From: Granulicella sibirica
GTDB taxonomy: Bacteria; Acidobacteriota; Terriglobia; Terriglobales; Acidobacteriaceae
NCBI RefSeq assembly: GCF_004115155.1
Contig: NZ_RDSM01000006.1
Coordinates: 124,001-188,000 of the forward strand
Direction of reading: 5' to 3'
Length of the DNA: 64,000 nucleotides
Positions 6,711 to 24,770 of this stretch are shown here, in pieces (the first letter of the stretch is position 1; each line of letters opens with the position of its first letter). The position numbers were made by a program, and so were the translations under genes. The notes under the pieces are model-generated. The model ran no database searches, was not told the origin of the DNA, and was given only the letters and a program-made list of their open reading frames with translations.

Positions 6711-6792
6711 AAGCGTCCGGTTTTAGCTTCGGGACCGCGCGGTTCCAGACAGCACTTCGGGGTCGAAATTGGTCAAAACGCCGTTTTGGGCG
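6711..6792 (+). repeat. Array site 1 (inverted-repeat element)
   Basis: Starts at the recombinase stop codon. The right arm is clear (GAAATTGGTCAAAACGCCG followed by TTTT). The left arm is more degenerate (CGTCCGGTTTTAGCTTCGG). First member of the dispersed family spread over 6.7-24.8 kb. Confidence 0.75.
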
Positions 6793-6855
6793 CGACGGGA
6801 TCACTGACGACACTGCGACTTACGGAGACTGACTGATCTGACTGCTGTTCAGCGG

Positions 6856-7683
6856 CTACTTCTTTGGACAATCGCTGCAATCAGGCCAGCTCTCGCGATG
6901 TTGGTTCCACCAAGCTCGCGCTCTGAGCGTCTGAAGTGTCGGTAAAGAGGTGGGGCCTTCCCGAGTCGGCCCGAAACTCACTCCGGTCAGTTCCTCCAGA
7001 GCAGTAGCGGCGATATCTTGAGGTACCCAATCAGGATCTTCGAGATAGCCCGCGATCGCGGGGACATCGCTTCTGTCACCCAGGCTCCCAAGAGCTTGAA
7101 GGAGCCATAGGCGGGTCTGCCCGGTGAACAAGGGAAGTTTGGCTCGTATGGAGGGCACCGCCGCTTTGATCCGAAGAGTTTTGAGGGGTAACGAGGCTTG
7201 TTCGACGGCCCCAGGATCTTGTTCTGCCACAAACATCGTTAACAGGTCCGGAACCGCTGATCGAAAGCCAAGGTCTCCGATGACTCTGGCCGCATTAGAA
7301 CGGACTAAGACATCTGGGCTTCTCAAACTGTCATCTAGAAATCGTGCGCAGCCAGCAAAATGTACGTCCCTCATCCCTCGCATCGCCATCCAGCGTGTGT
7401 CCGTCGAGCGGGTACTCTCCGCTAGGTGCAAAAGAGCGGGGCCAGCATTTGGATATCGCTGAGTGATACTCAGCAAATCTTGCTCTTTCTTTGCAAGGTC
7501 GTGTTCCTGGTCAAAGCTCCTCAGAGCCGTAGGTAAAGTCCGCATTGACTGGCTAAGCAAGGAGCTTTGGGCGGCAGTATGCTGGGCGGCATCCTCGAGA
7601 AAGCCAAGAACGGACGCCGCGCGCAAAAGGCCGATTCCCGACAGTGCGACAACAAAAACAACACATTTCGAGCGGCTCGACAT
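6856..7683 (-). CDS. Secreted or membrane-anchored HEAT-repeat protein
   Basis: The 275-residue product starts with a hydrophobic leader (VVFVVALSGIGLLRAASVLG). A helical region follows, with HEAT-like repeats at about residues 95-240, for example NAARVIGDLGFRSAVPDLL and WLLQALGSLGDRSDVPAIAGYL. HEAT solenoids usually bind other proteins; no enzyme domain is visible. A longer frame reaches upstream to 7854, but it would run through array site 2, so I start at the ATG at 7683. The gene stands alone between two array sites and points against the recombinase. Confidence 0.7.
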   Translation of the reverse strand: MSSRSKCVVFVVALSGIGLLRAASVLGFLEDAAQHTAAQSSLLSQSMRTLPTALRSFDQEHDLAKKEQDLLSITQRYPNAGPALLHLAESTRSTDTRWMAMRGMRDVHFAGCARFLDDSLRSPDVLVRSNAARVIGDLGFRSAVPDLLTMFVAEQDPGAVEQASLPLKTLRIKAAVPSIRAKLPLFTGQTRLWLLQALGSLGDRSDVPAIAGYLEDPDWVPQDIAATALEELTGVSFGPTREGPTSLPTLQTLRARAWWNQHRESWPDCSDCPKK

Positions 7684-7749
7684 GCCTTTAACTATCCTCC
7701 TTCCGCTTAATTGGACGAGGGCTGAGCGCTCGGGGGAGCCATAGGTCCT

Positions 7750-7872
7750 GATACAAAACGCCGTCATCGTCACCTGCGCACCGACGCTCCCGCAAACTCG
7801 CGTTTTCGGCAACATCGGCGATTTGGTCGTACTTGACGAGTCGAAGTTTCCCATAACCCCGTTGTTCAGGGA
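7750..7872 (+). repeat. Array site 2
   Basis: A complete copy spans 7788-7872: left arm CGCAAACTCGCGTTTTCGGC then AACATCGG, right arm GTCGAAGTTTCCCATAACC then CCGTTG. An extra right-arm remnant, ACAAAACGCCGTC, lies just upstream at 7754-7766. Confidence 0.75.
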
Positions 7873-7892
7873 ACGGCAGGTGCTAACTGGCT

Positions 7893-8258
7893 TTAGGAAC
7901 CTCCCATAGCGTATTCAAGTGCGATCGTCGTCTCGACCTCCACTGGCACTCCATTGATGAGATAAGGTTTATAAACCCATTGCTTGACGGCTTTCGAGAA
8001 GCTCGTTTGCAGTAATTCGGGTCCACTGATCACCCGTAGCTTTTTGACTGTCCCATCCGTACCAATGATGACTCGCAGTACTACAAGTCCATTGATTTTT
8101 CGCCTTTTCGCTTCCTTTGGGAACTGAGGATCAACCCTTTTTACTAGATCTTTTGCCAGTACGCCGCTTGAAACTCGCACCGGCGCATTTACCGTCGGCT
8201 CCTGCATAGGGCACGGCATAGTCAACACGAAAGTCAATAGCAAAGCGAGCGCCGTCAT
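7893..8258 (-). CDS. Periplasmic TonB C-terminal-domain protein
   Basis: The 121-residue protein has a signal-like N terminus and a TonB C-terminal fold at about residues 35-118. Marker segments are VDPQFPKEAKRRKINGLVVL, IGTDGTVKKLRVISGPELL and AVKQWVYKPYLINGVPVEV. TonB proteins normally pass energy from ExbBD to outer-membrane receptors. This one lacks a proline-rich spacer and, apart from a cleavable-looking leader, a membrane anchor, so it may act as a free periplasmic domain. Its stop codon lies 20 bases from array site 2. Confidence 0.8.
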   Translation of the reverse strand: MTALALLLTFVLTMPCPMQEPTVNAPVRVSSGVLAKDLVKRVDPQFPKEAKRRKINGLVVLRVIIGTDGTVKKLRVISGPELLQTSFSKAVKQWVYKPYLINGVPVEVETTIALEYAMGGS

Positions 8259-8317
8259 TTACTGACGAATTCTAAGCCCTGGAGCGCTGCTTGGGAATAT
8301 GGCGAGCAGGCCCGCTC

Positions 8318-8329
8318 CCGGAAAGTCGG
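8318..8329 (+). repeat. Array site 3, left fragment (interrupted by IS30)
   Basis: The bases CCCGGAAAGTCGG are the outer part of a left arm. The arm continues on the far side of the insertion sequence at 9560. Joining the two, with one copy of the GG duplication, restores a left arm that matches the family consensus. Confidence 0.8.
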
Positions 8330-9559
8330 GGCGGTCTCAACCGGTCGATGCAACACCATCTGATTTAGATCATTTCTCGGAGGTGGTGTTGATGAGACGA
8401 GGAAGACAGTTTGGCCTTTCTGCGGAGCAGAAGGCGGAGATCTGGCGGCGTTGGAAGGCAGGGGATTCGTTGCATGAGATTGGTCGAGCCTTCGACAAGG
8501 ACCATGGCTCGATTCAGTTCCTGTTATCGAAGCACGGAGGGATTGCTCCGGCGGTCCGTCGCCGGTCGCAGCGTACGCTCACGCTGGCCGAGCGGGAAGA
8601 GATCTCGCGAGGCATGGCTTCTGGCTCGTCGATTCGTGAGATAGCCAGGGGTCTCGAACGGCCAGCGTCTACGGTGAGCCGGGAGGTGGCGCGTCATGGT
8701 GGCCGTCTGATGTATCGAGCCAGTGAGGCTGATCAGAGAGCCTGGGACTCAGCACTTCGGCCTAAGAGCTGTTGGCTTGCCCACCACAGGAAGCTGAGCT
8801 TGGCCGTGGCCAGTAAACTGATCCTGGACTGGTCGCCGGAGCAGATTCCCGGTTGGTTGAAGAGACGATACCCCAACAACGAGAGCATGCGCGTGTCCCA
8901 CGAGACGATCTACCGCAGCTTATTCATTCAGGCTCGAGGAGTGCTGAAAAAAGAGCTGATGCAGCACCTGCGCTCCAGGCGGCAGATCCGCCGCTCGGTT
9001 CATGCCAAGGCTGCCGGCCAGTCCCGAGGTCAGATCGTCGATGCCATCTCTATCAGGGAACGACCTGCAGAGATCGAAGACCGAGCCATCCCTGGCCACT
9101 GGGAGGGAGACCTGCTCAGCGGCTCCGGCAACAGTCACATCGCGACCCTGGTGGAACGGCACTCGCGCTTCACCATCCTGGTCAAAGTATCCAGCAAGGA
9201 CACGGCGACCGTCGTTGCCGTGCTCACTCGGCAAGTTCGGAAGCTGCCCGCTTCGCTGAGGCGCTCGTTGACCTGGGACCGTGGCCTCGAGATGGCCAAA
9301 CATAAGACCTTCACAGTGGCCACGAAGGTGAACGTCTACTTCTGTGATCCGCAGAGCCCGTGGCAGCGCGGCACCAACGAAAATACCAACGGACTTCTAA
9401 GACAGTACTTCCCCAGGAAAACCGACTTATCCGGCTACTCCCAGGCAGACCTCAACAAGGTAGCCCTGCGACTCAATCAACGCCCGCGCAAAACGTTGGA
9501 CTTTGAAACTCCGGCTAGTAAACTTCATGCCAGTGTTGCATCGACCGGTTGAGACCGCC
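8330..9559 (+). mobile_element. IS30-family insertion sequence (1230 bp)
   Basis: The ends are inverted repeats: GGCGGTCTCAACCGGTCGAT at 8330-8349 and its complement at 9540-9559. They extend inward for about 27-28 bp with one or two mismatches. A GG duplication flanks the element (8328-8329 and 9560-9561), as expected for the family. It carries one transposase gene. Length, repeats and DDE transposase all fit IS30. It is inserted within array site 3. Confidence 0.9.
8392..9552 (+). CDS. IS30-family transposase
   Basis: The 386-residue DDE transposase has two N-terminal helix-turn-helix regions (FGLSAEQKAEIWRRWKAGDS and LTLAEREEISRGMASGSSIR) and a C-terminal integrase core. The catalytic set is Asp in GHWEGDLL, Asp in LTWDRG and Glu in RGTNENTNG. 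The ATG at 8392 follows GGAGGTGG. An upstream in-frame ATG at 8299 lies outside the element's left inverted repeat, so it is not the native start. The frame looks intact, so the element may be active. Confidence 0.9.
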   Translation: MRRGRQFGLSAEQKAEIWRRWKAGDSLHEIGRAFDKDHGSIQFLLSKHGGIAPAVRRRSQRTLTLAEREEISRGMASGSSIREIARGLERPASTVSREVARHGGRLMYRASEADQRAWDSALRPKSCWLAHHRKLSLAVASKLILDWSPEQIPGWLKRRYPNNESMRVSHETIYRSLFIQARGVLKKELMQHLRSRRQIRRSVHAKAAGQSRGQIVDAISIRERPAEIEDRAIPGHWEGDLLSGSGNSHIATLVERHSRFTILVKVSSKDTATVVAVLTRQVRKLPASLRRSLTWDRGLEMAKHKTFTVATKVNVYFCDPQSPWQRGTNENTNGLLRQYFPRKTDLSGYSQADLNKVALRLNQRPRKTLDFETPASKLHASVASTG

Positions 9560-9632
9560 GGTGTTATCGGCAACTTCGGTCATCGGGACACCCCGGATGG
9601 GTCGAGGCTGGTCAAAATGCCGTTTGCGAGCG
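9560..9632 (+). repeat. Array site 3, right fragment
   Basis: Continues from the IS30 insertion: GTGTTATCGGCAACTTCGG, a short spacer, then GTCGAGGCTGGTCAAAATGC and CGTTTGCG. It is in the same orientation as the other sites. Confidence 0.8.
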
Positions 9633-10053: not shown

Positions 10054-10581
10054 ATGAAGTTCGACACAGCACAGTCAGCCGTCGCGCTCGTATTACTTAG
10101 CCTCGTCTCGTTGTCGCCGCTTATGACCTGGGCGGAAGATGCAGATTTGCGCTACGCTATCGGCACCGTCTATTACGCTGAGGGAAGTGAATTCAAGGCT
10201 GTTGAGAAGGAAGCAGCTCCACAGAGCGGACGGGGTATTTATTCTGCGAAGGTGAAGGGAGCGCACGCGGCGCTCCGCCTTCAGGCAGAACCGCATCAGG
10301 TATTTCGCGTATGCGGCGTCGATCCCACCCGTTACAAGCTTTATAGGTTCAGGTCAGATGCAAAGACCCGGATAATCACAATTGCGACCAATACACTGCT
10401 AGGTGGTTACAAGGTGGTACTTCCAGAGTCAGAAATCCAGATAAAGATCGAACAGGCAGATAATGGCTGTTTTACACTCACAACACAAGAAACTCTGAAA
10501 GATGGCGAGTTGGGCTTCAGTCCTGTGGATTCGTTGGATGCCTTTATGTTTGGAATCGGAAGGGTACCAGAATCGAGGTAG
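10054..10581 (+). CDS. Secreted hypothetical protein
   Basis: The 175-residue product has a clear signal peptide (MKFDTAQSAVALVLLSLVSLSPLMTWAED) and a beta-rich mature part of about 148 residues with two cysteines that could pair. I recognise no family. The ATG is preceded by a strong AGGAGG. The gene stands alone between array sites, with its stop 23 bases before the left arm of site 4. Confidence 0.7.
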   Translation: MKFDTAQSAVALVLLSLVSLSPLMTWAEDADLRYAIGTVYYAEGSEFKAVEKEAAPQSGRGIYSAKVKGAHAALRLQAEPHQVFRVCGVDPTRYKLYRFRSDAKTRIITIATNTLLGGYKVVLPESEIQIKIEQADNGCFTLTTQETLKDGELGFSPVDSLDAFMFGIGRVPESR

Positions 10582-10603: not shown

Positions 10604-10908
10604 CGAGGTCGCATTGTCGGCAATCACGCATGATGAACCGTCCAATCGGGTTGATGTTGCCCGGCTACGTGTCGAGCGGAGGGTACTCGGAGTCATAGGA
10701 GTCCCGGGAGCCCCTTCGAAAGGCCAACCCGGGGGAGTCTCTGGCCCCATCCTCACCGAGGGGAATGCAGCCAGGCCGAAGCGTGCTGCCGCAACGTAGG
10801 GAATACAGCCGATGGCCATCCGGGCGAACTTGCCGCCTATGACTGTAAGACCAAGGTGTTCATCCAGCGATAGAAGTCGAAGCTGCCGATAACGCCGTTT
10901 TCATGGAA
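10604..10908 (+). repeat. Array site 4 (two separated arms)
   Basis: A left arm at 10604-10628 (AGGTCGCATTGTCGGCAATC) and a right arm at 10870-10908 (AGTCGAAGCTGCCGATAACG then CCGTTTTC) are about 240 bases apart. I see no gene between them. This may be two sites, each with one decayed arm, that once bounded a small cassette. Confidence 0.6.
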
Positions 10909-10925: not shown

Positions 10926-11348
10926 TCACGGCTGGATCAACATTTCTGGTGAGTTAATCAACACGCGAGTAGGGCTGACTCGGACTGCCCGGGGCAGGTT
11001 CCTGTTCCCACTTTGCCGCTTGTAATCCAGCTCTACGGTGCAGATTCTTGTGTGTGCATCCTCATTCGCATGCCAACCTCGAATATAGGTGAGCGCACCA
11101 GAACGCAAGAAGTCTGGTCCCTTCACAAAGGAGATTTTGCCTAGACTTCCATCGCGTAAGAAGGTGACCTTCACGAAGACCGGACCTTGTACGTGGGCTG
11201 CATAAGCGATGGGCGGATACAGTGGTTCTGCTGTCTCCGTGACTGTCATTGAGCTGCACGCCTTGTCCTGAGCCCTTGCAGAGGCCGCTGTGATACTAAG
11301 CGCGAGGACCACAAGTATCCGGAATGGTAAGTGCAGTTGGAGCTTCAT
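10926..11348 (-). CDS. Second periplasmic TonB C-terminal-domain protein
   Basis: A 140-residue protein with signal peptide (MKLQLHLPFRILVVLALSITAASARAQ) and a TonB C-terminal-like domain. Marker segments are EPLYPPIAYAAHVQGPVFVKVT, DGSLGKISFVKGPDFLRSGA and YIRGWHANEDAHTRICTVEL. It differs strongly from the copy at 7893-8258, so the two are not a recent duplication. I start at the ATG at 11348 because the longer frame lacks a signal. Its stop lies 18 bases from the right arm of site 4. Confidence 0.7.
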   Translation of the reverse strand: MKLQLHLPFRILVVLALSITAASARAQDKACSSMTVTETAEPLYPPIAYAAHVQGPVFVKVTFLRDGSLGKISFVKGPDFLRSGALTYIRGWHANEDAHTRICTVELDYKRQSGNRNLPRAVRVSPTRVLINSPEMLIQP

Positions 11349-11403
11349 CGGTCCACCTCGAACAGAATGAACGAAGTATAAATCGGCTGCAGGAGGTACC
11401 TCC

Positions 11404-11431
11404 CGCAAAGTCGGGGTTTTCGGAAACGTCG
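11404..11431 (+). repeat. Array site 5 (left arm only)
   Basis: CGCAAAGTCGGGGTTTTCGG then AAACGTCG matches the left arm. No right arm is recognisable; the next gene ends 11 bases away. Confidence 0.6.
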
Positions 11432-11441
11432 CTAGGATTGC

Positions 11442-11717
11442 TCATCGTGCAGGCTCATCCTTTTCGAGAAGCCAGAGAGAATACTGACCCAAGGTCATAC
11501 CTCCGGGGTCATCGATCCCTTTCCTGTTGGGTCGCGTACTCAGCTCGTCTTTTATCCCGCTGAGGAGATCGTCTGGAAGCTCCTCAGCCCCGTGCTTCTC
11601 TACCTGCACCCCTGTGTTGTCCTCGTAGACGATAGCGACGAGATCATATCGCTCGTTGCAGACCTCCGCCTCTAGGCGGCCAGCTTCAGGGTTGCCAGTG
11701 AGAACGACTTCCATCAT
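11442..11717 (-). CDS. Small hypothetical protein
   Basis: A 91-residue acidic protein (MMEVVLTGNPEAGRLEAEVC...) without signal peptide or membrane segment. It begins with a beta-rich half and ends in a charged helix. I recognise no family. It sits alone between sites 5 and 6 on the minus strand. Confidence 0.55.
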   Translation of the reverse strand: MMEVVLTGNPEAGRLEAEVCNERYDLVAIVYEDNTGVQVEKHGAEELPDDLLSGIKDELSTRPNRKGIDDPGGMTLGQYSLWLLEKDEPAR

Positions 11718-11751: not shown

Positions 11752-11850
11752 CCGAAGTCGGTTTTGTCTGCAAGTTCGGGAGCTCTGGGTGTCCGGAAGC
11801 GGGTCGGATAGGGTCGGAAGGGGCGAGGTTTCCTAGAACGTCGTTCAGGG
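11752..11850 (+). repeat. Array site 6
   Basis: Left arm CCGAAGTCGGTTTTGTCTGC then AAGTTCGG, a spacer of about 35 bases, then right arm GGCGAGGTTTCCTAGAACG and TCGTTC. Complete but diverged. Confidence 0.65.
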
Positions 11851-12089
11851 CCACACTCAACGGCGTCGATTGTTGGTGCCGACGTTTGCCATGGCCGCAC
11901 ACCCTATGCTCGCGACGACGAAGAGTAAACTCTCGTTGTCAGCTATAGCATTCCGAAGTCGAAGGTCTTCGCCCCACGGGCAATGTCCAGGGTTTCCAGC
12001 GAGCCCAAACGGCGCTCTTGGAGGGAATCTTCGTGGCCCCGATCTCTGCATGCAATAGGCTTCGAATATCCTATTCCAGAGGCCTAGGA
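11851..12089. other. Short stretch between site 6 and the TPR gene
   Basis: A minus-strand frame ending at 11857 (start near 12051; it encodes AIADNESLLFVVASIGCAAMANVG) stops just beyond site 6, as other minus-strand genes of the array do. It could be a small membrane protein, but no ribosome binding site or homology supports it. I leave it as undecided. Confidence 0.25.
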
Positions 12090-14300
12090 ATGTCCCGACG
12101 TCATCCGTTGAAGCCGATTGCAAGTAGTTCACGGGCTAAAATTCAGCGACTGATGTCCGATGCTCTTCAACACCACAACGCAGGTCGACTCGATGATGCG
12201 GCCAAAATCTATCGTGAAATCCTCGCGCTCGATGATCACCACGCCGACAGCATCCATCTTCTTGGACTTATCTATAGTCAGGCCGGTCTGAAGGATCGGG
12301 CAGTCGAGCTGATTGAGATGGCTATCTCTCTCAAACCTCATGTGGCCGCTTACTTTTGCAACCTTGGAAATGTCCTGCAAGATCAAGGGCGATGGCAAGA
12401 TGCAAAGAGAGCATACGAACGCGCACTGGCGTTAGATCCAAGTTCAGCTGAGATTTACGTGAGTTTAGGACATCTCCTTGCAAGTCAAGGAGACCCGGGC
12501 GAAGCCATCATGCATTATGAGAAGGCGCGGTCCCTAAAGCCTTTGTTGCCTGAGATCTACTGCAATTTGGGATCTGCGAACCAACAGATGGGTCGTCTAC
12601 CCGATGCTCTGGAACAATTCACACGTGCGGTCCACCTCAAACCTGACTTTCCACAAGCACTCTACGGTATGGGAGCGGTTCTGCATGCGCAGGGGCGGCT
12701 ACAGGAAGCCAAAAAGCTATACCAAGACGTCGTAAAGATCCATCCGACGATGGCTGAAGTCTACAACAATCTCGGTAACATCTTAACGACGGAAAAGCTC
12801 TATGATGACGCTGCCCTTAATTTTGAGCGGGCCCTAACGATCAACCCTCACCATGCAGAAAGTTATTATAACTACGGAAACAGCCTTCAGGCCCAATACA
12901 AGATGGATCTGGCCATACTGCAATATGAACGTGCAATTGAACTCCGGTCTGATTTTGTCGAGGCCATCTTCAACCTTGGTAAAGCTCTTGAGAAGCAGGA
13001 TCTGTCTCGTGAGGCCATCGCTCAGTACAAGCGTGCACTAGCGTTAAAACCGGACTATATCGAATGCCTCACTAGTCTCGGGACCGTCCTGAGTGGTCAG
13101 GGAATGTATTCCGAGGCTCTCGAACAGTATGCCAAAGTGCTATCGTCCGATCCCAATAACGCTACAGCCTACTGTAACTTGAGTGACCTGCTCTTGGTGA
13201 TAGGCAGTTTTGATGAGGCTGTCGTCTTCCACGAGGAGGCGATTTCCAGGCGCCCAGACTTTGCGAATGGCTATTGTGGACTTGGTTCTACCCTATTCAG
13301 AAAAGGGGAGATCGCCCGGGCCAGAGAGTCTTTCGAGAAGGCCCTGATTCTGGATTCCAATCATGCCCAGGCGAAGCTCAACCTCTCCATGCTTCAATTG
13401 CTCGTGGGAGATCTCCAGAACGGTTGGAAGAATTATGAAATTCGCAAAGAGCTGCGGCAGTATAGGTCGCAGCATTTCATCCAGCCTCAATGGGACGGGG
13501 AAGCTCTCGATGGCACTCGAATTCTCATTCATGCCGAGCAAGGGCTGGGGGATACCCTGCAGTTCCTACGCTATATCCCCTTGGTTGTCGCGGCAGGGGG
13601 CACGGTCATCCTCGAAGTTCCAGCAGCACTGCGGGATTTAGCGGCCAACATTCCCGGAATCACCGAGATCCTCTCGGTCGGTGATCCTTTACCGCCCTTC
13701 GAGATACATTGTCCTCTTATGAGTCTGCCGTTGGTGTTCAAAACCACACTAGAGACCATACCTGCCACAGTTCCCTACTTGTCTATTGGGGCTGAAGATC
13801 GCCTACAGTCCGCTTCCTATGCGTGGCCTGCTGATGGGCTACGAGTTGGCATTGTCTGGACGGGCAATCTGAAGAACCTTACCAACAAGGATCGATCGCT
13901 TCCTCTTTCCGCCCTGGATCCCCTTCGCCACATTCCTGGGATCCAACTTTTTTCACTTCAGCTCGGCCAGGACTTAGCCCCGCAAAGTGGCAGTGAAGGC
14001 AGACTGACTGACCTCGCGTGGCTCGCAAGCACCATGCCTAGTACGGCAGCCGTTATGGAGCATCTTGACCTTGTGATCTCAGTCGACACGTCCCTCGCTC
14101 ATCTAGCGGGCGCTCTTGGCAGGCCGACCTGGCTTTTGCTGCAAGCCGCAAATGATTGGCGATGGCTTGAAGGAACTTCCGATAGTCCCTGGTACCCGAC
14201 GATGCGTCTTTTCCGACAGCGAACCCTCGGAGATTGGGGAGAAGTCATTGAAAGAGTTTCAGATGAACTCAAAGATCTGGTGTTCCACAGAACAACATAG
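12090..14300 (+). CDS. TPR protein with C-terminal glycosyltransferase-like domain
   Basis: The 736-residue protein has about 12 tandem TPR units at residues 15-440 with the usual W/L/G/Y/A/F/A/P pattern (for example AEIYVSLGHLLASQGDPGEA). A C-terminal domain at about 460-730 follows. Its segments ILIHAEQGLGDTLQFLRYIP, VGIVWTGN and DLVISVDTSLAHLAGALG resemble the ADP-heptose/O-GlcNAc transferase type (GT9/GT41-like) often fused to TPRs. It probably glycosylates proteins or glycans bound by the TPR scaffold. The start at 12090 is chosen because the frame upstream to 12018 lacks a binding site; an ATG at 12153 is also possible. The stop is 12 bases before site 7. Confidence 0.8.
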   Translation: MSRRHPLKPIASSSRAKIQRLMSDALQHHNAGRLDDAAKIYREILALDDHHADSIHLLGLIYSQAGLKDRAVELIEMAISLKPHVAAYFCNLGNVLQDQGRWQDAKRAYERALALDPSSAEIYVSLGHLLASQGDPGEAIMHYEKARSLKPLLPEIYCNLGSANQQMGRLPDALEQFTRAVHLKPDFPQALYGMGAVLHAQGRLQEAKKLYQDVVKIHPTMAEVYNNLGNILTTEKLYDDAALNFERALTINPHHAESYYNYGNSLQAQYKMDLAILQYERAIELRSDFVEAIFNLGKALEKQDLSREAIAQYKRALALKPDYIECLTSLGTVLSGQGMYSEALEQYAKVLSSDPNNATAYCNLSDLLLVIGSFDEAVVFHEEAISRRPDFANGYCGLGSTLFRKGEIARARESFEKALILDSNHAQAKLNLSMLQLLVGDLQNGWKNYEIRKELRQYRSQHFIQPQWDGEALDGTRILIHAEQGLGDTLQFLRYIPLVVAAGGTVILEVPAALRDLAANIPGITEILSVGDPLPPFEIHCPLMSLPLVFKTTLETIPATVPYLSIGAEDRLQSASYAWPADGLRVGIVWTGNLKNLTNKDRSLPLSALDPLRHIPGIQLFSLQLGQDLAPQSGSEGRLTDLAWLASTMPSTAAVMEHLDLVISVDTSLAHLAGALGRPTWLLLQAANDWRWLEGTSDSPWYPTMRLFRQRTLGDWGEVIERVSDELKDLVFHRTT

Positions 14301-14311: not shown

Positions 14312-14350
14312 GTTCCATTACCAAGGCTTGTTTCCGACAACGCCGTTTTG
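14312..14350 (+). repeat. Array site 7 (right arm)
   Basis: AAGGCTTGTTTCCGACAACG then CCGTTTTGC matches the right arm. The left arm is not recognisable; the TPR gene stop lies directly upstream. Confidence 0.65.
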
Positions 14351-15255: not shown

Positions 15256-15338
15256 CAGAAAAGTCGTGTTGTCGGCAACTTCGGTCCTAGCGGCACCAGG
15301 GTAGCTTGAAGTTGGTCAAAACCCCGTTTTCCATGCAC
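15256..15338 (+). repeat. Array site 8 (complete)
   Basis: Left arm GAAAAGTCGTGTTGTCGGC then AACTTCGG; spacer beginning TCCTAGCGGCACCAGGGTAG; right arm TGAAGTTGGTCAAAACCCCG then TTTTC. About 90 percent identical by eye to site 18, including the spacer. Lies between two minus-strand genes. Confidence 0.9.
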
Positions 15339-16029: not shown

Positions 16030-16050
16030 TTCGGCTGTTGGAACGCTGAC

Positions 16051-16378
16051 GTAACCGGCTGAAAGGTCCATTTCAGGAGTAAAAGCCAACCCGTGAGTTT
16101 TCAATGTGCTCGTTTCAACGGCATCGCTATAGTTCTTGCCAGCAGATAAATGGATCAGTAGGTGTGGATCTGAGATCGCGAAGAAGATCGTATGTCATTG
16201 CCACCATTGTGCAAGAGCAGGTGCGAAAGCCACTTTGGCAGCCCGATCCCCACCTGTAGACCGTTCAAAAAGAATCGCAGCCAGGAATGCAGAAGCAAGA
16301 CCGCGAAATGGAAAAACCGCGCAGCAGGTCTACCGTCTCCAACCGCGCTACCGCCGCGCCATTGCTGAGTCATACCTT
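16051..16378. other. Stretch without a recognised gene
   Basis: Frames of 72 and 96 codons exist on opposite strands but neither has a ribosome binding site, recognisable domain or plausible composition. Probably a decayed cassette between site 9 and the acyltransferase gene. Confidence 0.4.
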
Positions 16379-17701: not shown

Positions 17702-17820
17702 GCAGTCCTAGCGGCCCAAGAAGCGTCGGTCGGGCTTCAAGCTGCCGCCATTCGATGGGAGAAATCACACACGACTACTCCGGTTGTCAGAGATGATTGC
17801 CGAAAACGCCCCGTTTTCCT
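17702..17820 (+). repeat. Array site 10 (two partial copies)
   Basis: 17702-17757 holds the spacer motif AGTCCTAGCGGC seen in sites 8 and 18, followed by a diverged right arm (CTTCAAGCTGCCGCCATTCG). 17773-17818 is a compact second copy ending GATTGCCGAAAACGCCCCG then TTTTCC, which runs into the start of the next frame. Confidence 0.6.
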
Positions 17821-18176
17821 TGAATCTTGTGATTGACGACAGAGCAGTCGGTAAAATCAGCAACGTGATCTCGATCCTGCATGAGCGTGAATACAAGACT
17901 CTCGGCGACATCGAGATTCGTGAGACGGACTGGCAGAGAATTCGAGAGCGCGGGCGGCTGCGGTTTATGGCCGATTGCTGTCGGTCATCCATATCGGGCA
18001 GGGTCGGGCTTGTGCTGATGCTCTCATCGGTGGAAGGCCTACACAGCTTGCACTCCATTGATACATCAGCTTGGCTCCTGCTTCTGTTTGGTGCGTATGC
18101 ACTCTCAGCGAGCATCATCTACTCGGCCCGTGCTTGGGGCCGTCTTGAGCGTAGGTTTGATCGAAGTTGGCGATAA
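17784..18176 (+). CDS. Small hypothetical protein whose ends overlap array sites
   Basis: A 130-residue frame; its first dozen codons lie in the right arm of site 10 and its last codons (RRFDRSW) in site 11. The core LVIDDRAVGKISNVISILHE and DIEIRETDWQRIRERGRLRF looks like a soluble helical domain. It is followed by a hydrophobic stretch (SAWLLLLFGAYALSASIIYS) that may anchor it. No family recognised. The true start may be a GTG near 17829 beyond the site. Confidence 0.45.
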   Translation: MSEMIAENAPFSLNLVIDDRAVGKISNVISILHEREYKTLGDIEIRETDWQRIRERGRLRFMADCCRSSISGRVGLVLMLSSVEGLHSLHSIDTSAWLLLLFGAYALSASIIYSARAWGRLERRFDRSWR

Positions 18177-18200
18177 CCCCGTTTGCGGGGAGCAAGTTGA
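18155..18200 (+). repeat. Array site 11 (right arm)
   Basis: TTGATCGAAGTTGGCGATAA then CCCCGTTTGCGG. The preceding gene terminates inside it. Confidence 0.65.
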
Positions 18201-18231: not shown

Positions 18232-18888
18232 ATGACCAACCAGCGCATTAGGACCAACAGTAATGGTTCGGAGTTGATTAGAGCGCGCTTTGCGCTCCGC
18301 CTCTCTGAGATTGGCTTTATCCGCAACGGAGACTGGTTTGTCCTTCGGCTGAGCTCTGATCTACGCGGCTTGGTCTCCTTCAACTTTGCCGCGCACCGTG
18401 AAGACCACTTATTGGGCGTTTGTCCCATCGTCAGTCTGGAGTTCTGCTCCATCGCTAAGAAGCTCAACGAGCTCACAGACAACCCTCTCAGCAAAGTTCA
18501 ACCGTCGCTCAGCTGTGGCTTGGGATACCTGATGCCGGAAGGCCGCTGGCTCGAGTGGCTGTTCAATCCTGCTTCCGCCGACGTCGATGAGAATGACCAC
18601 ATTGCCCAAATATGCGAAGCAATACATACCTACGGGCTCCCCTTCTTCGCTGATAACCGATCGGTGGACACTCCGATAGAGAACCTGATCCATCATCGTT
18701 TTTCATTTAAGGATCGTGCGTCGTTCCACTTGCCTCTGGCATACAGCCTGAGATTTCAGTGGTCATCAGCGTTAGACCTAGTAAGGAACACACAGTCCGA
18801 GATGTTGGGCCGAACCGACGAGGCGGCGAAGTCGTTCCGATCCTTCGCGCAAAGATTTATCGATGAAATTTCGATTATCGATTTGTGA
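18232..18888 (+). CDS. Hypothetical protein, DUF4304-like
   Basis: The 218-residue soluble protein starts with a helix and then FALRLSEIGFIRNGDWFVLRL and RGLVSFNFAAHRED. That order of helix, strand with aromatic residues, then VSFNF resembles the DUF4304 type of small proteins common in mobile gene contexts. The match is tentative. No signal peptide. The stop at 18888 lies five bases before site 12. Confidence 0.55.
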   Translation: MTNQRIRTNSNGSELIRARFALRLSEIGFIRNGDWFVLRLSSDLRGLVSFNFAAHREDHLLGVCPIVSLEFCSIAKKLNELTDNPLSKVQPSLSCGLGYLMPEGRWLEWLFNPASADVDENDHIAQICEAIHTYGLPFFADNRSVDTPIENLIHHRFSFKDRASFHLPLAYSLRFQWSSALDLVRNTQSEMLGRTDEAAKSFRSFAQRFIDEISIIDL

Positions 18889-18892
18889 AACT

Positions 18893-18930
18893 CTTTGAAA
18901 GTCGGTGTTGTCGGCAACTTCGGATGCCGA
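18893..18930 (+). repeat. Array site 12 (left arm)
   Basis: TTGAAAGTCGGTGTTGTCGG then CAACTTCGG is the best match to the left-arm consensus in the window. No clear right arm follows; the reading frame of the next gene begins here. Confidence 0.75.
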
Positions 18931-18991
18931 TAGCTGGCTAGCTCCTCCGTGGTATTGCGCCTCCCTTGGGTTCACCTTAGCCTGTTGTGGT

Positions 18992-21001
18992 ATGCAGAAC
19001 TCTGTCCTCCCTCCAGGCCTCAAAGAGCAAGCAGGAGAGCAAACTCGAGAACTCTTTGGGCCGGGCTACACCTCTTCCTCGTGGGATGTCTCAGGTTCAA
19101 GCGAAGATCGCTCCCCGCAGTCTCGGCCGCCGGACTCCTCTGTTCGCAGAAGGCTTCGTATCATCATGGGCGGAATTGTGATTGCATTCGGGATCGGCGC
19201 TTCGGGATATCGAATGATGAACCACGGCTCGAGCTCACGACCCAGGCCGTGGAGTCACGGCGGCGCGGTTGCGCTGCCGAGCGAACTCTCCGGGACAGGA
19301 CGAATCTATCTGCTCCAACTCGGTTCCCACAAGGATCCATATGCCGTTGTCGAGATGGCGAGTTGGCTTCGTGGGACCTACTCGCTCGACACCCAGGTGC
19401 TACCGCCAGAGCCGCTGAGCGATGCCACCTATGATCACTCTCGTCACAGCTACGTCGCAGAGCGAATCAACGATCAGATCAAGCGCGACCACCCTGGCCT
19501 GGCGGCAGATCCGAATGCTGTTCTCATCGGGTTCACCGACGATAAAATGTATTCGGTGACGGAACGCTACAGCGACACCTTCTCGCAACGCGACCACCGC
19601 ACCGCCATCATCTCCTCCGAGGGCATGCAATATAAGACGTGGTTCGGTCGGGGGGCAAACTGGAAGACTCCGACTTCGGTGCTGCTGCAAAACCGTCTTC
19701 GGCGCATCCTTCTTAAGGACGTCGCAGTCCTGTTCTGGCATCTGCCGCTCAATGATGACCCTGGCAGCCTCCTCTACTACCGCCTTAATCCGAATCTTCC
19801 CGGCAACGACGTCTTCGAGTCCGATCTTGATCCAGTCCATTCACCCTGGGGCCTGTACGTCGCCGATCCTTGCATCGTCTTCACTCATAGCCCGGAATCG
19901 TCTCTGACGATCACAAATCCACTCATCCAGCAGTGTGATTATGCTGAGAGCGCTGGTTCGCTGCAATCCGCCCTCGCCACGCCGGATCATCCGCCGGACA
20001 CCTCTGAGGAGCGCATCGAACTCCGTCTTGCCAATGGACTGCTCACCGAAAAACATACCGATTTTTTCCTGCCCGGCGCTATTCCAATTAGGCTGGAACG
20101 TGCCACCAGCAGTCGCTGGCAGATGGCATCGGCTTTCGGTATGAGCGGCAGCCATAACTACGATCGCTATCTCGGCTCCTTCGACGGAATGCGGCACATG
20201 GTAATCGCGAGCGCTGGAAGCAGCGATGTCGGACTCACGCGACATCCTTCGTGGCTGCCTCTGCTGCTGCTCAACACATGGGTTGATTCAGATTTGTCGG
20301 GCAGTGCGCTCAAGCTGCGTTGGGTAGCCAGTCCGGCAGAACACTTCGATCTGACCCGCTACAACGGTGAGGTTGACTCCTACCTGCCCTGCACCGACGT
20401 CGAGGTCTGCTACCTCAACGCCTACGAGGATGCGACCGGACAAAAGCTCATCTTCGAGCGTGACTCGCAACGCAACCTGCTGAGTCTTCGCGCCTCCAGT
20501 GGAAGCTGGGTGCGGCTGACCCACGATTCAAATCCCGAAGTAAAGATCCGTGTCACGGAGATAAGCGATAGCCAGGGGCGCAAGGTGAAGTATGCCTATA
20601 ACCAGAGAGGCCAGCTGTCGGAGGCGGCCTATCCCTCGGGCGAAGTGCTGAGCTATGAGTACGACGGCGCCCAAAACCTGCTCAGCGTAGCGTCTAGTCT
20701 CGGCGGCGGGCCGAAGCTGCCACTCATCACCAATCGCTACGAACGCGGCCATCTGGTCGCTCAGACGTTGACTGACGGACATACCTACAGGTACGCCTTC
20801 CTGGAAGTCTCAAACGGTGTGATCGCCCGCGCTCAGGTCACAGCTCCAGACGGCACGCTATTTCAGATCGCGTTCGGCCGGGATGGAGCAGCCATCCACG
20901 CGGATGAGCAAGGGTCGGAGCATTCGCTTACGAAGGTTGCGCGTACGAGTTTCGGGGCGCTGCCGCAGACCGAAGTGACGACACCTCTCATACGGATGTA
21001 G
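18992..21001 (+). CDS. Membrane-anchored protein with a short RHS/YD-repeat tail
   Basis: About 670 residues. One membrane segment (RRRLRIIMGGIVIAFGIGAS, near residue 53) is followed by a domain reading GRIYLLQLGSHKDPYAVVEM, then NAVLIGFTDDKMY and LLKDVAVLFWHLPLNDDPGS. This loosely resembles archaemetzincins but lacks the HExxH zinc motif. The C-terminal quarter has YD-type repeats (GRKVKYAYNQRGQLSEAAYP, EYDGAQNLLSVAS). RHS proteins are normally far longer, and this one ends abruptly at site 13, so it looks truncated by recombination. The start is uncertain: a frame reaches back to 18905 inside site 12, and ATG codons occur at 18992 and 19166. Confidence 0.6.
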   Translation: MQNSVLPPGLKEQAGEQTRELFGPGYTSSSWDVSGSSEDRSPQSRPPDSSVRRRLRIIMGGIVIAFGIGASGYRMMNHGSSSRPRPWSHGGAVALPSELSGTGRIYLLQLGSHKDPYAVVEMASWLRGTYSLDTQVLPPEPLSDATYDHSRHSYVAERINDQIKRDHPGLAADPNAVLIGFTDDKMYSVTERYSDTFSQRDHRTAIISSEGMQYKTWFGRGANWKTPTSVLLQNRLRRILLKDVAVLFWHLPLNDDPGSLLYYRLNPNLPGNDVFESDLDPVHSPWGLYVADPCIVFTHSPESSLTITNPLIQQCDYAESAGSLQSALATPDHPPDTSEERIELRLANGLLTEKHTDFFLPGAIPIRLERATSSRWQMASAFGMSGSHNYDRYLGSFDGMRHMVIASAGSSDVGLTRHPSWLPLLLLNTWVDSDLSGSALKLRWVASPAEHFDLTRYNGEVDSYLPCTDVEVCYLNAYEDATGQKLIFERDSQRNLLSLRASSGSWVRLTHDSNPEVKIRVTEISDSQGRKVKYAYNQRGQLSEAAYPSGEVLSYEYDGAQNLLSVASSLGGGPKLPLITNRYERGHLVAQTLTDGHTYRYAFLEVSNGVIARAQVTAPDGTLFQIAFGRDGAAIHADEQGSEHSLTKVARTSFGALPQTEVTTPLIRM

Positions 21002-21085
21002 GTTCGTTGTCTCTTGCAGCAATCTCGACACATCCAACGGCGATAGCCGGCCGCAGTTGGCCACAAAGCCGTTGTCAAGGCGTTG
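21001..21085 (+). repeat. Array site 13
   Basis: Left arm GGTTCGTTGTCTCTTGCAGC, right arm CGCAGTTGGCCACAAAGCCG then TTGTC. Diverged but complete; it begins at the stop codon of the RHS-like gene. Confidence 0.6.
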
Positions 21086-21136
21086 GGAGCAATGGCTCAG
21101 ACACTGCGTCCCTTGGCCTTTGGTATCATCTGCCAC

Positions 21137-21607
21137 ATGTCGCGAGTGAAGAACGGGATTGCTGAGAGCTACCCCTCTCTGGCAACAAGTACAGTCTTCC
21201 TCCCAGCTGAAGAATCATCGGATCTGCGGTTGATGGGCGAACTCGCCGCCCATGCGATAGATCTGTTCGAGGCTGGCGACGTGGAAGACGTTCGACCCGC
21301 ATTCCACTTAGCCGAGCTGTTCCTTGCTTCTACTCTTGAGGCAGAACGTGATGCAGCAGCACTCGGCTTTCTCGAGACCATTCAAAACATAGCGTCTCAT
21401 CGAACCTATGGGATGGCAGCCTTTGAACAGTTCTTGGGTGCCGAATCCCAGGTTGCGTTGGCTAAACTCATGGAAGTATGGCGAGGAAAGGCAAGTCTTG
21501 CCGAAGCGAACTTCTCCGAAGGAGTTGTTGGAGAACGTGGAAAACCCAGAGTTGCACAAAATCATCGAGCAAATGACTCGCGAGTAGCGTTCCCGCAAAA
21601 GTCTTAG
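21137..21607 (+). CDS. Small DUF7674-like protein, possibly frameshifted near its end
   Basis: The frame from the ATG at 21137 gives 156 residues: AESYPSLATS, then a helical region FEAGDVEDVRPAFHLAELFL and GFLETIQNIASHRTYG, then FEQFLGAESQVALAKLMEVW. The order resembles the DUF7674 type, small acidic proteins linked to toxin immunity. The last 45 residues look unlike protein and run into site 14. In the next frame, from about 21480, a plausible tail ends ELLENVENPELHKIIEQMTR with a stop at 21583-21585. A single-base change near 21478 may have switched the frames. Confidence 0.5.
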   Translation: MSRVKNGIAESYPSLATSTVFLPAEESSDLRLMGELAAHAIDLFEAGDVEDVRPAFHLAELFLASTLEAERDAAALGFLETIQNIASHRTYGMAAFEQFLGAESQVALAKLMEVWRGKASLAEANFSEGVVGERGKPRVAQNHRANDSRVAFPQKS

Positions 21608-21692
21608 TTGTCGGCAAGTTCGCCTCCCAGAGGGCTGTTTAGGTTTCTGGGCAGAACTTAAGGGTCGAAGTTGGTGAAAACGCCGTTTTGCA
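21594..21692 (+). repeat. Array site 14 (complete)
   Basis: Left arm CGCAAAAGTCTTAGTTGTCG then GCAAGTTCG; spacer of about 35 bases; right arm GGTCGAAGTTGGTGAAAACG then CCGTTTTGC. The outermost bases GCAAAA and TTTTGC pair exactly. Confidence 0.85.
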
Positions 21693-21816: not shown

Positions 21817-22377
21817 CTATCGGGATTTCAGCTGGTCGATGAAGGCAATGACCGAGGGGGCAGACCAGTCGGCAGCGGCGGTGTGTTTGGCTACCATGCG
21901 ACCGTCGCGGTCGTATAGGAAGGTTGAGGGGAATTGGTGGAGCTGCATGCTGGGTGGGATGTCGTCGTCGTGGGTCAGATAGAAGGGCAGGTTGAGATGG
22001 TTACGGCGTGCATAGGAGCGGACGGCGGTCGGTGAGTCCATGCGGGACACAATGAGGAACTCTACATTGGGATCGTTGCGATAGTGGTCGTACAGCTTCT
22101 GGACTGTGGGCATTTCGGCTATGCACTGGATGCACCAGGTCCCCCAGAGATCGAGGAAGACCACCTTGCCCTTCGTGGAGGAGAGGTGAAGGGGCACGCC
22201 ATCAAGGGTACGGTAGACGAGGTCAGGAGCGGATTGCGGATTGTAAGCGAGCTGGGGAGGCTGCTCGTTGGAGGCGATCTTGTGTACAACAAATTTAAGA
22301 AAGACGAAGCCGATGATGATGCTGAGGACGGTGAGCGTCAGGAGAGCGAGTACCACTCTGCGTAGAATCGTCGGCAC
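21817..22377 (-). CDS. Membrane-anchored thioredoxin-like protein (TlpA/ResA type)
   Basis: The 186-residue protein has an N-terminal membrane anchor (residues 8-31) and a periplasmic thioredoxin fold. The redox motif is WCIQC (Cys82 and Cys85) in FLDLWGTWCIQCIAEMPTVQ. The cis-Pro region is YDRDG...FPSTFLYDRDGRMVAKH. Such proteins reduce disulfides in apocytochromes or other exported proteins. The CIQC dipeptide differs from the usual CxPC. A second gene of a cytochrome maturation system is not nearby, so the partner is unknown. Confidence 0.9.
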   Translation of the reverse strand: MPTILRRVVLALLTLTVLSIIIGFVFLKFVVHKIASNEQPPQLAYNPQSAPDLVYRTLDGVPLHLSSTKGKVVFLDLWGTWCIQCIAEMPTVQKLYDHYRNDPNVEFLIVSRMDSPTAVRSYARRNHLNLPFYLTHDDDIPPSMQLHQFPSTFLYDRDGRMVAKHTAAADWSAPSVIAFIDQLKSR

Positions 22378-22439: not shown

Positions 22440-22473
22440 GGAAGACCGAAGTTGGTCAAAACCCCGTTTCCAG
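22440..22473 (+). repeat. Array site 15 (right arm)
   Basis: GACCGAAGTTGGTCAAAACC then CCGTTTCC. Very good right arm; the left arm is not recognised in the 60 bases upstream. Confidence 0.75.
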
Positions 22474-22582
22474 GGCAGATGCCAGCGACAACGCGACTTG
22501 TGAGTCTTTGACGGGTCATAGGACGTGTGCGCTGCTCTAGCCAGACGAGTTCGGGCCAGCAAACTTCTTTGAGATTTTCTCA

Positions 22583-23317
22583 ATGTTCTTCAGCTTGCTT
22601 CAGAGATCCATCCGATTGTCAGCCTTCTTCCTTCTTGCGGTTACCGTTGGGGAAGCTCAGAGCAAGGAAGCTCCGCTCCCCCCGGACGTGCCTGCGCTGG
22701 AATGCAGGCCCCCTGCCGTGTTCAACTTCGACGGCCTGCGTGTCTTCAGCGGCACAGCCCCGGTCCTGATGACGTTTCACTGCGGGGACAAGGGCAGTGA
22801 AGCCGCCGCCTGCCACGCCGAGTATCTCGACCCAGCCAGGCCTGACGAATATCAAGGCGATCTCATCGCTCCCGGTGCGACCCAGGACCGTTGGACGTGC
22901 GCCATGGTGGGCGGATGGTCGGGTTGGATCCCAACCGATCGGCTGGTGCCCGTCCCGTCGACTCCCGCCATCACGACGGAACAGTGGCTCGGAACCTGGG
23001 TCACCGGCCATGCACGCATGCACAGTGACCGGCTGGTCGTTACGCGCAGTGCCGAAGGCCACGGCAAGATCCACGTCGAGGGCAGGGCGTATTACACCAA
23101 CATTGCGCACAATGTGCATACCGGCCAGGTGAGCGGCGACGCCGTCGCCATGGGGCCATTTCTCCACATCCTCGATCACGGCGAGTTGCCAGATTGCGTC
23201 CTTGATCTGAAGTACGACCTTGCCAGCAAAACCTTCCGTGCCGTCGATAATCAGCTATGCGGCGGTTTCAACGTCACGTTCGATGGAACCTGGCATCAGG
23301 CGAACTCGAAGAACTAG
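22583..23317 (+). CDS. Secreted hypothetical protein
   Basis: The 244-residue product has a signal peptide (LSAFFLLAVTVGEAQS) and a mature part with six or more cysteines, mostly in the first half (ECRPPAVF, FHCGDKG, AACHAEY, WTCAMVGGWSGW). It ends in a domain with GTWVTGHARMHSDRLVVTRS. The WSGWIP piece recalls SH3-like folds. No family recognised. It lies between sites 15 and 16 on the plus strand. Confidence 0.65.
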   Translation: MFFSLLQRSIRLSAFFLLAVTVGEAQSKEAPLPPDVPALECRPPAVFNFDGLRVFSGTAPVLMTFHCGDKGSEAAACHAEYLDPARPDEYQGDLIAPGATQDRWTCAMVGGWSGWIPTDRLVPVPSTPAITTEQWLGTWVTGHARMHSDRLVVTRSAEGHGKIHVEGRAYYTNIAHNVHTGQVSGDAVAMGPFLHILDHGELPDCVLDLKYDLASKTFRAVDNQLCGGFNVTFDGTWHQANSKN

Positions 23318-23419
23318 CTTTGAGCAAGAGCATTCTGCTTCCAGCGCGTGAGTTGCAGAGGTCTGGAGTCATCGGGACCCAGAGAACGCATTGAGTGTGA
23401 CTGATCCCGGCTCCTGGAG

Positions 23420-23456
23420 CAGTTGGTTTCCCATAACTCCCGTTTTCGAGGCGGGC
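23420..23456 (+). repeat. Array site 16 (right arm)
   Basis: AGCAGTTGGTTTCCCATAAC then TCCCGTTTTCG. Compare CCCATAACCCCGTTG of site 2. Confidence 0.6.
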
Positions 23457-23511: not shown

Positions 23512-23973
23512 ATGAAAAATCTCTTCGATCCTGCTCTGCTCAAAGACATAAAGCAACGCATAGGCCGTCTAGACCCCGACAGTGAACGGCAATGGGGTCA
23601 GATGCCGGTCACTCAAATGCTTTCGCATTGCACTGCTGGCCTTCAGATGGCCATGGGCGTCATCAATCCGAGGCGGGCGCCCTTTCCTGGGAATATAATC
23701 GGCCCACTCATCAAACCGATGGTTTTCGGCAATGATAAGCCGATGCGGCGTAACTCGCCCTCTGTGCCGGAACTTTTCTCGGAGATCTCCACAGCAAGCG
23801 AGTTCGACCGGGAGCGGAACGAACTTACCGAAACCGTCGAGAGATTCGCTTCAATGGGCGAATCGTGCTGCTCGCAACATCCACATCCTTTCTTCGGGCA
23901 GCTCAAACCACATCAGTGGGCGATCCTCATGTACAAGCACCTTGACCACCACTTGTCGCAGTTCGGTGTCTAG
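23512..23973 (+). CDS. DUF1569 family protein (DinB-like fold)
   Basis: The 153-residue protein matches DUF1569. It begins KNLFDPALLKDIKQRIGRLDPDSERQWG..., followed by QMLSHCTAGLQMAMG and ending PFFGQLKPHQWAILMYKHLDHHLSQFGV. The conserved histidines (His in MLSHC and HLDHH) form the metal-binding three-His arrangement of DinB-like four-helix bundles. The biochemical role of the family is not established. Intact and of normal length. Confidence 0.9.
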   Translation: MKNLFDPALLKDIKQRIGRLDPDSERQWGQMPVTQMLSHCTAGLQMAMGVINPRRAPFPGNIIGPLIKPMVFGNDKPMRRNSPSVPELFSEISTASEFDRERNELTETVERFASMGESCCSQHPHPFFGQLKPHQWAILMYKHLDHHLSQFGV

Positions 23974-24004
23974 GTAGTCGGCTGCGGCACCCCGCAGGCA
24001 GCTC

Positions 24005-24050
24005 TTTCCTTGAAAGTCGTTTCAGGGAATACAAGCCAACCCAAGACACC
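24005..24050 (+). repeat. Array site 17 (weak)
   Basis: TTCCTTGAAAGTCGTTTCAG then GGAATACAAGCC keeps GAAAGTCG of the left arm, but the rest is decayed. It is listed because it lies between two convergent gene ends like other sites. Confidence 0.35.
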
Positions 24051-24065
24051 TTGAAGCGTGCGGCT

Positions 24066-24374
24066 TCAGCGATTAGGGGATGTGCTGGAACTTGGCCGAC
24101 TGCTATTCCGATGAGGCAACGGAAGAGAGGAGCCTTGCGGGGTAGCCTTCAAATAACCTGCATCGACGAGGTCCTCCAACGTCTGCGGAGATCGGCCCAA
24201 GTCTTTCAGATAATTCTGCATAGCCCCGAGCACGACTCGGTTATCCTCTTGACGAACAGCTTCCTTCGCTCGTTCGACCGCTGCACTTACCAGTCGAAGA
24301 CTGGCAGCGATCGCTCCCAAAGCAATTAAAGAAACACACAAAACGAGGCAAAGCTTCGTAACACGCGGTTTCAT
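24066..24374 (-). CDS. Truncated pseudopilin-like (GspG-type) protein
   Basis: The 102-residue product has an N-terminal hydrophobic helix (LCLVLCVSLIALGAIAASLR) and then VLGAMQNYLKDLGRSPQTLE and DLVDAGYLKATP. This is the alpha-helical spine and following loop of general-secretion pseudopilins (LQALQNYLRD...P.SLEDLV.AGYLK). The beta domain that should follow PxDP is missing, and the last 25 residues are low-complexity. There is no prepilin peptidase site ahead of the helix. Probably a remnant cut off at site 17. Confidence 0.55.
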   Translation of the reverse strand: MKPRVTKLCLVLCVSLIALGAIAASLRLVSAAVERAKEAVRQEDNRVVLGAMQNYLKDLGRSPQTLEDLVDAGYLKATPQGSSLPLPHRNSSRPSSSTSPNR

Positions 24375-24446
24375 GAACAGATCCTCTATCTTGTTCGACT
24401 ATGGCGTTACCCACGACAAATCCGGTTGTCGTGAGGGAGACGTCCG

Positions 24447-24525
24447 AAAAGTCGGGGTTGCCGGCAACTTCGGTCCTAGCGGCACCAGGGTAACTTGAAG
24501 TTGGCCGAAACACCGTTTTTTTGGG
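24447..24525 (+). repeat. Array site 18 (complete)
   Basis: Left arm GAAAAGTCGGGGTTGCCGGC then AACTTCGG, in which GTTGCCGGCAAC is a perfect 12-base palindrome; spacer TCCTAGCGGCACCAGGGTAA; right arm TGAAGTTGGCCGAAACACCG then TTTTTTT. Near-identical to site 8 some 9 kb away. Confidence 0.9.
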
Positions 24526-24600
24526 GACCGCGTCCTTCACCTCGGCGCGTGTCTACCTTTTTGCATCTGCAACGCGGATTTATTGTTCTACTGTACTGTC

Positions 24601-24741
24601 ATGCCGACTTTCTACAGACCGACGCAATCGCGCCATAAGCGTGTGATCTATCGGTCGATTGACCCGGACGAGCCGCGAAGACGAACCATTACGCGCGTTA
24701 TCGTCGCGGTTTTGATGTTCTTGTCATGGTGGAAAGGCTAG
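24601..24741 (+). CDS. Small basic membrane peptide (46 residues)
   Basis: An ATG at 24601 opens a 46-codon frame ending in TAG at 24739-24741. The first two thirds are strongly basic (RPTQSRHKRVIYRS, EPRRRTITR). The end is a short hydrophobic helix (VIVAVLMFLSWWKG). No clear ribosome binding site. It occupies the whole space between sites 18 and 19, with its stop at the edge of site 19, as for other genes of the array. No homologue recognised. Confidence 0.4.
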   Translation: MPTFYRPTQSRHKRVIYRSIDPDEPRRRTITRVIVAVLMFLSWWKG

Positions 24742-24770
24742 TTGCTCAAAGCGCCGTTTTCAAGGAGCTC
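24736..24770 (+). repeat. Array site 19 (right arm, last of the array)
   Basis: GCTAGTTGCTCAAAGCGCCG then TTTTCAAGG matches the right arm. I find no further copies to the right. Confidence 0.65.

Follow-up and report, generated by a model that had tools for sequence, protein, structure and literature searches.

A probable integron-like cassette array with a distinct site family in Granulicella sibirica

The window analysed here is a 64-kb stretch of Granulicella sibirica DNA, placed on a 204-kb contig (C6) of a 6.1-Mb genome. Between positions 6711 and 24761 on the plus strand (~6.7-24.8 kb) it holds an array of short two-arm elements, with 15 copies of a right (R) arm, 12 of them strong, and about 11 copies of a left (L) arm. 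The genes between the elements are mostly single, lie on both strands, and belong to unrelated families or to no family. A preliminary description of this DNA had proposed such a dispersed element across ~18 kb, with all orientable copies pointing the same way and single unrelated genes running in both directions between them, and each of these observations holds. All arms are on the plus strand, and the minus-strand matches above 16 bits overlap plus-strand arms, which leaves a single arm orientation. We consider it likely that Granulicella-type Acidobacteriota possess an integron-like gene-capture system and that this region is one of its cassette arrays, with a clade of Xer-like tyrosine recombinases, here called Int160, as the likely enzyme.

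Full sites lie at 7791-7866 (L 7791-7818, R 7842-7866), 15257-15331 (L 15257-15284, R 15307-15331), 21596-21690 (L 21596-21623, R 21666-21690) and 24446-24520 (L 24446-24473, R 24496-24520). A further full site, 8320-9627, is interrupted by an IS30 element (insertion sequence, IS) on the plus strand, so that its L arm is split into 8320-8329 and 9560-9580, with the R arm at 9603-9627. The element (8330-9559) has 27-bp inverted ends and is flanked by a 2-bp GG duplication (8328-8329 and 9560-9561). Arms are spread over the whole array, as described before, but 8.3-9.6 kb contains one site split by IS30. IS30 or IS30-like ends (GTGTTGCATCGACC...) were seen in or beside sites not only here but also at L110 ~11260, L064 ~9858, L062 ~10960-11190 and L135 ~6340, and the array sites may be IS30 insertion targets. 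The site at 11752-11848 combines an L arm (11752-11779) with a weak R arm (11824-11848). Site 1 has its R arm at 6764-6788 and a degenerate L arm, read by eye, at ~6718-6738. R arms with no clear L arm are found at 10878-10902, 14326-14350, 18162-18186 and 21052-21076, and L arms with no R arm at 11405-11432, 16000-16027 and 18896-18923. The remaining R arms are at 17792-17818 (weak, with one extra C, and a small hairpin ahead at ~17775), 22447-22471, 23422-23448 (weak, one extra C) and 24737-24761, the right end of the array.

With an R-core matrix trained on the whole genus, the 12 strong R arms score 15-32 bits, and the rest of the 64 kb contains no match of 15 bits or more. The weak R arms at 17795 and 23425 score 12.0-12.4 bits, compared with 12.7 bits for a stray match at 50883. 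The fifteenth R arm, at 11824, was picked up by the first matrix only, at 10.7 bits, where a stray match at 50011 reaches 11.4 bits. Nine L arms are clear by matrix, and two degenerate ones (near 6718 and 24010) were read by eye. In the whole G. sibirica genome, the R core with up to two mismatches gives six matches, all forward, and the reversed-pattern control gives none.

Several cassette genes could be assigned to Pfam families. On the minus strand these are a gene with HEAT repeats (6856-7854, an open reading frame (ORF) whose true start is probably internal), a TonB_C gene (7893-8258), a second gene with a weak TonB_C match (10926-11408), an acyltransferase (PF01757; 16379-17515) and a redoxin/thioredoxin-like gene (21817-22377). 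On the plus strand there are genes for a TPR protein (12018-14300), an RHS repeat protein (18905-21001) and proteins of families DUF7674 (21083-21607) and DUF1569 (23512-23973). No Pfam family was found for the plus-strand genes at 10054-10581 and 18232-18888, for the minus-strand gene at 15346-16104 (true start probably internal), for two small minus-strand genes (11442-11717 and 24066-24374), or for two minus-strand ORFs at 14361-15214 that are probably one broken gene.

We characterised the site family on 189 distinct R sites from fetched loci of 14 genomes, four duplicate sites having been removed first. The site matrices were trained on their own matches and the loci were fetched for holding sites, so the counts describe these loci and are not genome-wide. 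The consensus R core is AGTTGCCGAAAACGCCGTTTTC and the consensus L arm is GCAAAGTCGGTGTTTTCGG(C/A)AA; the core CCGTTT is present in 160/189 R sites and AAAGTCG in 56/87 L arms. The start of the L arm precedes that of the R core mainly by 32-34 or 52-54 nt, with minor groups at 42-44 and 73-76 nt. The asymmetry between the arms lies mainly in AAAGTCG (L) versus CGTTTT (R) and amounts, depending on the site, to a GT excess or a 3-nt mismatch; the two-base GT excess of the preliminary description is therefore correct for some sites and not for others. Adjacent R sites are on the same strand in 62 cases and on opposite strands in four at spacings below 1 kb (102 versus 13 below 4 kb).

In integrons, whatever follows the exchange point is already part of the next cassette, and the outer flank of the L arm should therefore match the start of its own cassette. 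Such a match was found (4.30/8 compared with 3.92 ± 0.15 in permutations, p = 0.010; 47 cassettes within 1 kb, duplicates dropped); it is a modest effect, with p values of 0.003-0.044 across ten settings. The outer L flank does not match the right flank of the same site (p = 0.82, range 0.75-0.97 over the ten settings, same 47 cassettes). Pairing of the outermost bases within a site, reported earlier for sites 8 and 14, can be seen at those two but is not general.

Six cassettes are common to unrelated contexts, with 88-97% identity. A wider listing has 57 shared segments, most of which are IS copies, repeats or synteny ending away from sites; the segments named here were inspected at base level. 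In both members of each comparison, all six shared cassettes start at the R-arm core CG|TTT; five of them also end at a site. One is in the window: 22467-23442 is shared with G. tundricola pACIX905 (987 bp, 94%), with homology running from CGTTTYCAGGGC to CCGTTT between unrelated flanks. It carries a plus-strand gene with no Pfam family (22583-23317), and its left and right borders are the R arms at 22447 and 23422; in the pACIX905 copy, an IS30 end occupies the place of the remaining left R arm. A second cassette extends from R core to R core (G011:C3 and G037:C3; 362 bp, 96%). Three others extend from an R core to the next L arm: G011:C3 and G011:C1 (523 bp, 93%), G025 and G018 (1,288 bp, 97%), and G014 and G054 (1,030 bp, 93%). 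Two sister species, G014 and G060, whose aligned blocks are 98-100% identical, differ by ~6.4 kb that includes two further R sites and that G060 lacks; at the junction G014 has AAAACCCCG|TTTT and G060 has AAAACCCCG|ACCG, with AACG|ACCG at the far end. The comparison of related strains suggested in the preliminary description thus yields one segment with an end at an R core, but the other six of seven gaps lie elsewhere. At the level of sequence comparison, the shared cassettes demonstrate movement among arrays, replicons and species, and they place the exchange point at CG|TTT in the R arm. They also support the view that exchange at the R core works in an integron-like manner.

The cassette boundaries bear on the possibility, raised from the start as the alternative, that the elements are a selfish intergenic repeat. 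Such a repeat could be a family with inverted ends, resembling miniature inverted-repeat transposable elements and mobilised by the Int160 unit acting like an insertion element. The recombinase unit flanked by L arms does have inverted ends, and the whole unit is common to G011 and G031 at 84% identity. Yet what is shared are genes with sites as their borders, the sites of an array all point one way, and the outer flanks follow the cassette and not the element; moreover, a selfish repeat gives no reason to expect that cassettes are bounded at the R core. We regard this explanation as highly improbable. Elements in both orientations and scattered over the genome without cassette turnover, a pattern named in the preliminary description as contrary to its proposal, are not what we observe, given the strand concordance of 62:4 below 1 kb and the turnover of cassettes at sites.

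Int160 is one clade of Xer-like tyrosine recombinases, with a support of 1.00, G017 copy included, in a tree where certain loci appear twice and short copies are omitted. The intact copy on pACIX905 (L160:1447-2454) encodes 335 amino acids. Its nearest solved structures are XerC-like, XerD and XerA; it scores above the cut-off of PF00589 and at 33.9 bits against TIGR02249 (cut-off 265), and its translation shows residues that we take to fit the catalytic set of the superfamily. A site arm lies directly at one or both ends of the gene in 7/9 copies. Inverted L arms flank the gene on both sides in G031, G011, G037 and G055, and the arms on either side point toward the gene in G011, G031 and G037. 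Three copies in G034 have an R arm at the 5' end; one of these also carries part of an L arm at its 3' end. The two copies without a scored arm are a partial one in G017 and one in G018 that is cut by the contig end, where the same partial L arm can be discerned by eye. Among the next relatives of Int160 (up to 65% identity), none of 24 loci has a site arm within 1 kb, with one weak match 1 kb off. The Int160 clade is thus associated with the sites, and we consider it the likely enzyme of exchange on the basis of this association. The homology between G011 and G031 (1,076 bp, 84%) extends as far as the outer edges of the L arms around the recombinase unit and stops there, and therefore the unit may itself be mobile.

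Other recombinases were considered. The preliminary description had pointed to a tyrosine recombinase at the left edge of the array. The gene is there (5765-6710, plus strand) and abuts site 1, but its reading frame is broken into two overlapping ORFs, and it is probably not the array integrase, since 29 other loci of its relatives have no site within 1.5 kb and it belongs to a different subfamily from Int160 (~42% identical). Its relatives are plasmid-borne Xer-like recombinases of Granulicella, Acidisarcina and others, of the same superfamily as Int160 and ~42-50% identical to it. No intact enzyme is encoded in the window array itself. Broken frames were noted in four site-adjacent recombinase genes (window 5765-6710, L060:18397-19352, L145:3594-4567 and L198:10006-10982) and may reflect decay or a regulated frameshift. 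An IS91-type integrase (ORF of L008) was likewise rejected: 12/16 loci have no R or L match within 1.4 kb. In the other four (L225, L226, L227 and L228) the gene starts 114-155 bp from an R site, but in one of them an IS91-type transposase comes next. Close pairs of high-scoring, host XerC/XerD-like recombinases (L007) were near no array in the genomes looked at; such a pair is not supported as the array enzyme, yet it may be.

Outside the array, a ParA-like gene and a PIN-domain gene lie to its left, and the contig may therefore be a plasmid. The first 1,100 nucleotides of the window contain short motifs that recur, visible as repeated peptides in several reading frames, and that resemble plasmid iterons. 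Toxin-antitoxin-like genes are present on both sides, namely the PIN-domain gene with a small upstream ORF (2414-3075) and, past the right edge as described before, a DUF433/DUF5615 pair (26037-26719).

The site family is centred on the genus. The R-core pattern is present in 36/62 genus genomes (139 matches, compared with four for the reversed pattern). A covariance-model search, as had been suggested, was positive in at least 32 of 199 relatives, 29 of them in the genus; outside it, one other genus of the family has at least two matches and two other families have at least one weak match each. These site numbers are lower bounds, as the best 25 candidates at most were scored per genome. Across 84,980 species genomes, a strict two-arm pattern was found in four stretches, all from Acidobacteriaceae. 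A site search of viral contigs gave no match, and the arrays had no match in Rfam. The densest array found is G011:C3, where ~10 kb hold 16 R sites, all on the same strand. Two side observations concern repeats: a pattern match in another family (L072) recurs within duplicated sequence there, and four arrays of a single genome (L059, L126, L127 and L129; G011:C1) have close by a segment of ~800 bp, at 90-95% identity and in some cases adjoining an L arm, which is possibly a multi-copy cassette or IS.

Classical integron sites are defined by the attC boxes RYYYAAC and GTTRRRY. As the preliminary description had stated, these are absent here: GTTRRRY occurs in 0/189 R arms and RYYYAAC in 0/87 L arms, with GTT itself usually kept. 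No IntI above the TIGR02249 cut-off was found in the 16 array genomes (all candidates scored in 14/16), nor in 73 relatives among the best 26 candidates at most scored in each, and the listed TIGR02249 matches in the array genomes leave out model positions 181-213. What is shared with integrons are mostly single-gene cassettes in one orientation, exchange precisely at the site (in the shared cassettes; partly in G049/G031 and G014/G060), an exchange point after G and before TT, cassette flow among replicons and species, and arrays without an integrase. The boxes and IntI aside, the arrays differ in that their sites are mismatched where exchange would take place and that the candidate enzyme is Xer-like, with its gene located at site arms or between them. 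The proposal of integron logic in a distinct system is borne out to this extent. An open-access literature search found no report on integrons in Granulicella or Edaphobacter.

These results have to be weighed against the idea that the cassettes are those of an ordinary integron whose attC sites have diverged strongly and whose IntI was lost or acts in trans, as in clusters of attC sites lacking integron integrases (CALIN). The retained GTT at the exchange point and the shared array logic would fit, and in lacking an intact enzyme the window array resembles the CALIN arrays known from ordinary integrons. Surveys of integrons commonly find CALINs (PMC9668308), and an attC model for Acidobacteria has been published (PMC8352920), which may or may not rest on sites of this kind. 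The lack of both boxes in every arm scored, the lack of IntI within the searches described, and the model positions left out in the listed matches make this explanation quite unlikely in our view. We do not class the system as an integron, since of its defining features both the site boxes and IntI were looked for and not found.

We tentatively propose an independently evolved form of gene capture, in which a Xer-derived recombinase, not IntI, would be carried between arms of its own site type and move single-gene cassettes via hairpin-like sites mismatched at the exchange point; integron-style capture would then have arisen more than once. In the integron-like system that we consider likely, whatever its origin, a cassette usually comprises one gene and one recombination site, whose R arm carries the exchange point CG|TTT. 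About half of the sites have in addition an L arm, an inverted, slightly mismatched copy ~10-40 nt upstream of the R arm, and one strand could therefore fold, making a folded single strand the putative substrate. Strand exchange at the R core would move the cassettes, probably catalysed by the Int160 clade, which other genomes of the genus encode between two inverted L arms or beside an R arm. Four R-only sites (G011:C3, G011:C1 and two in pACIX905) share a leader of 231-277 bp with 67-91% identity. Every one of them opens a run of same-strand sites in the stretch that was fetched, and one has no other site in its stretch; such leader-bearing sites at the 5' end of some arrays might be an attI-like entry point. 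A small hairpin, for example CCACGACAACTCCGGTTGTCAGGG, stands ahead of other R-only sites (by eye, at L061:4868, L068:4612, L069:12105, L151:10289, L159:8963 and window ~17775), which are possibly a second site type.

A number of observations weigh against such an integron-like system. Of the R sites, 102/189 lack an L arm, and R-only sites terminate two of the six shared cassettes, so a fold is not needed in every case. Only two of six sites fold clearly better than shuffled sequences (the plus strand of 21596-21690 does, with z = -3.15), RNAalifold gave no consensus fold for the sites, and covariation is marginal (the score was reached in 12/500 shuffles, the both-side changes in 171/500). 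Four of nine Int160-clade copies are frameshifted or cut, arrays occur in genomes without an Int160-clade gene (G053, G014, G060, G002, G048 and G054), and this reading does not account for the window recombinase beside site 1. Cassette boundaries are resolved to ~2 nt only, since the cores are alike; the cassette common to G049 and G031 (460 bp, 88%) starts at an R core and has no site at its end; and between G014 and G060 a single gap in seven ends at an R core, fixed to within the shared 2-nt CG, with no site at the far end.

The R-only sites in particular would suit an exchange of modules resembling Xer/dif, with the R arm alone as a double-stranded core site and the L arm secondary. Xer/pdif plasmid modules consist of single genes between short dif-like core sites in alternating orientation, with a Xer-type enzyme. 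The resemblance to our arrays, judged from this general description, extends to the Xer-like candidate enzyme and to the two shared cassettes bounded by R-only sites, but here the orientation is uniform and many sites have a second, inverted arm. The frequency of L arms at R arms (87/189, compared with ~2% background) and the match of the outer L flank to its own cassette are also difficult to reconcile with a secondary role of the L arm, and we think this alternative unlikely.

To our knowledge, cassette capture of this kind has so far been credited to a single integrase family with a single type of site. A second system, with sites of its own and a candidate enzyme of the Xer type, would make it possible to ask which features gene capture needs, and the intact pACIX905 recombinase together with its sites would provide a test pair. 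With such a system, soil Acidobacteriota would have an extra pool of mobile genes, which tools based on classical attC sites may overlook, and the site family with its cassettes may represent a separate route by which bacteria collect genes.

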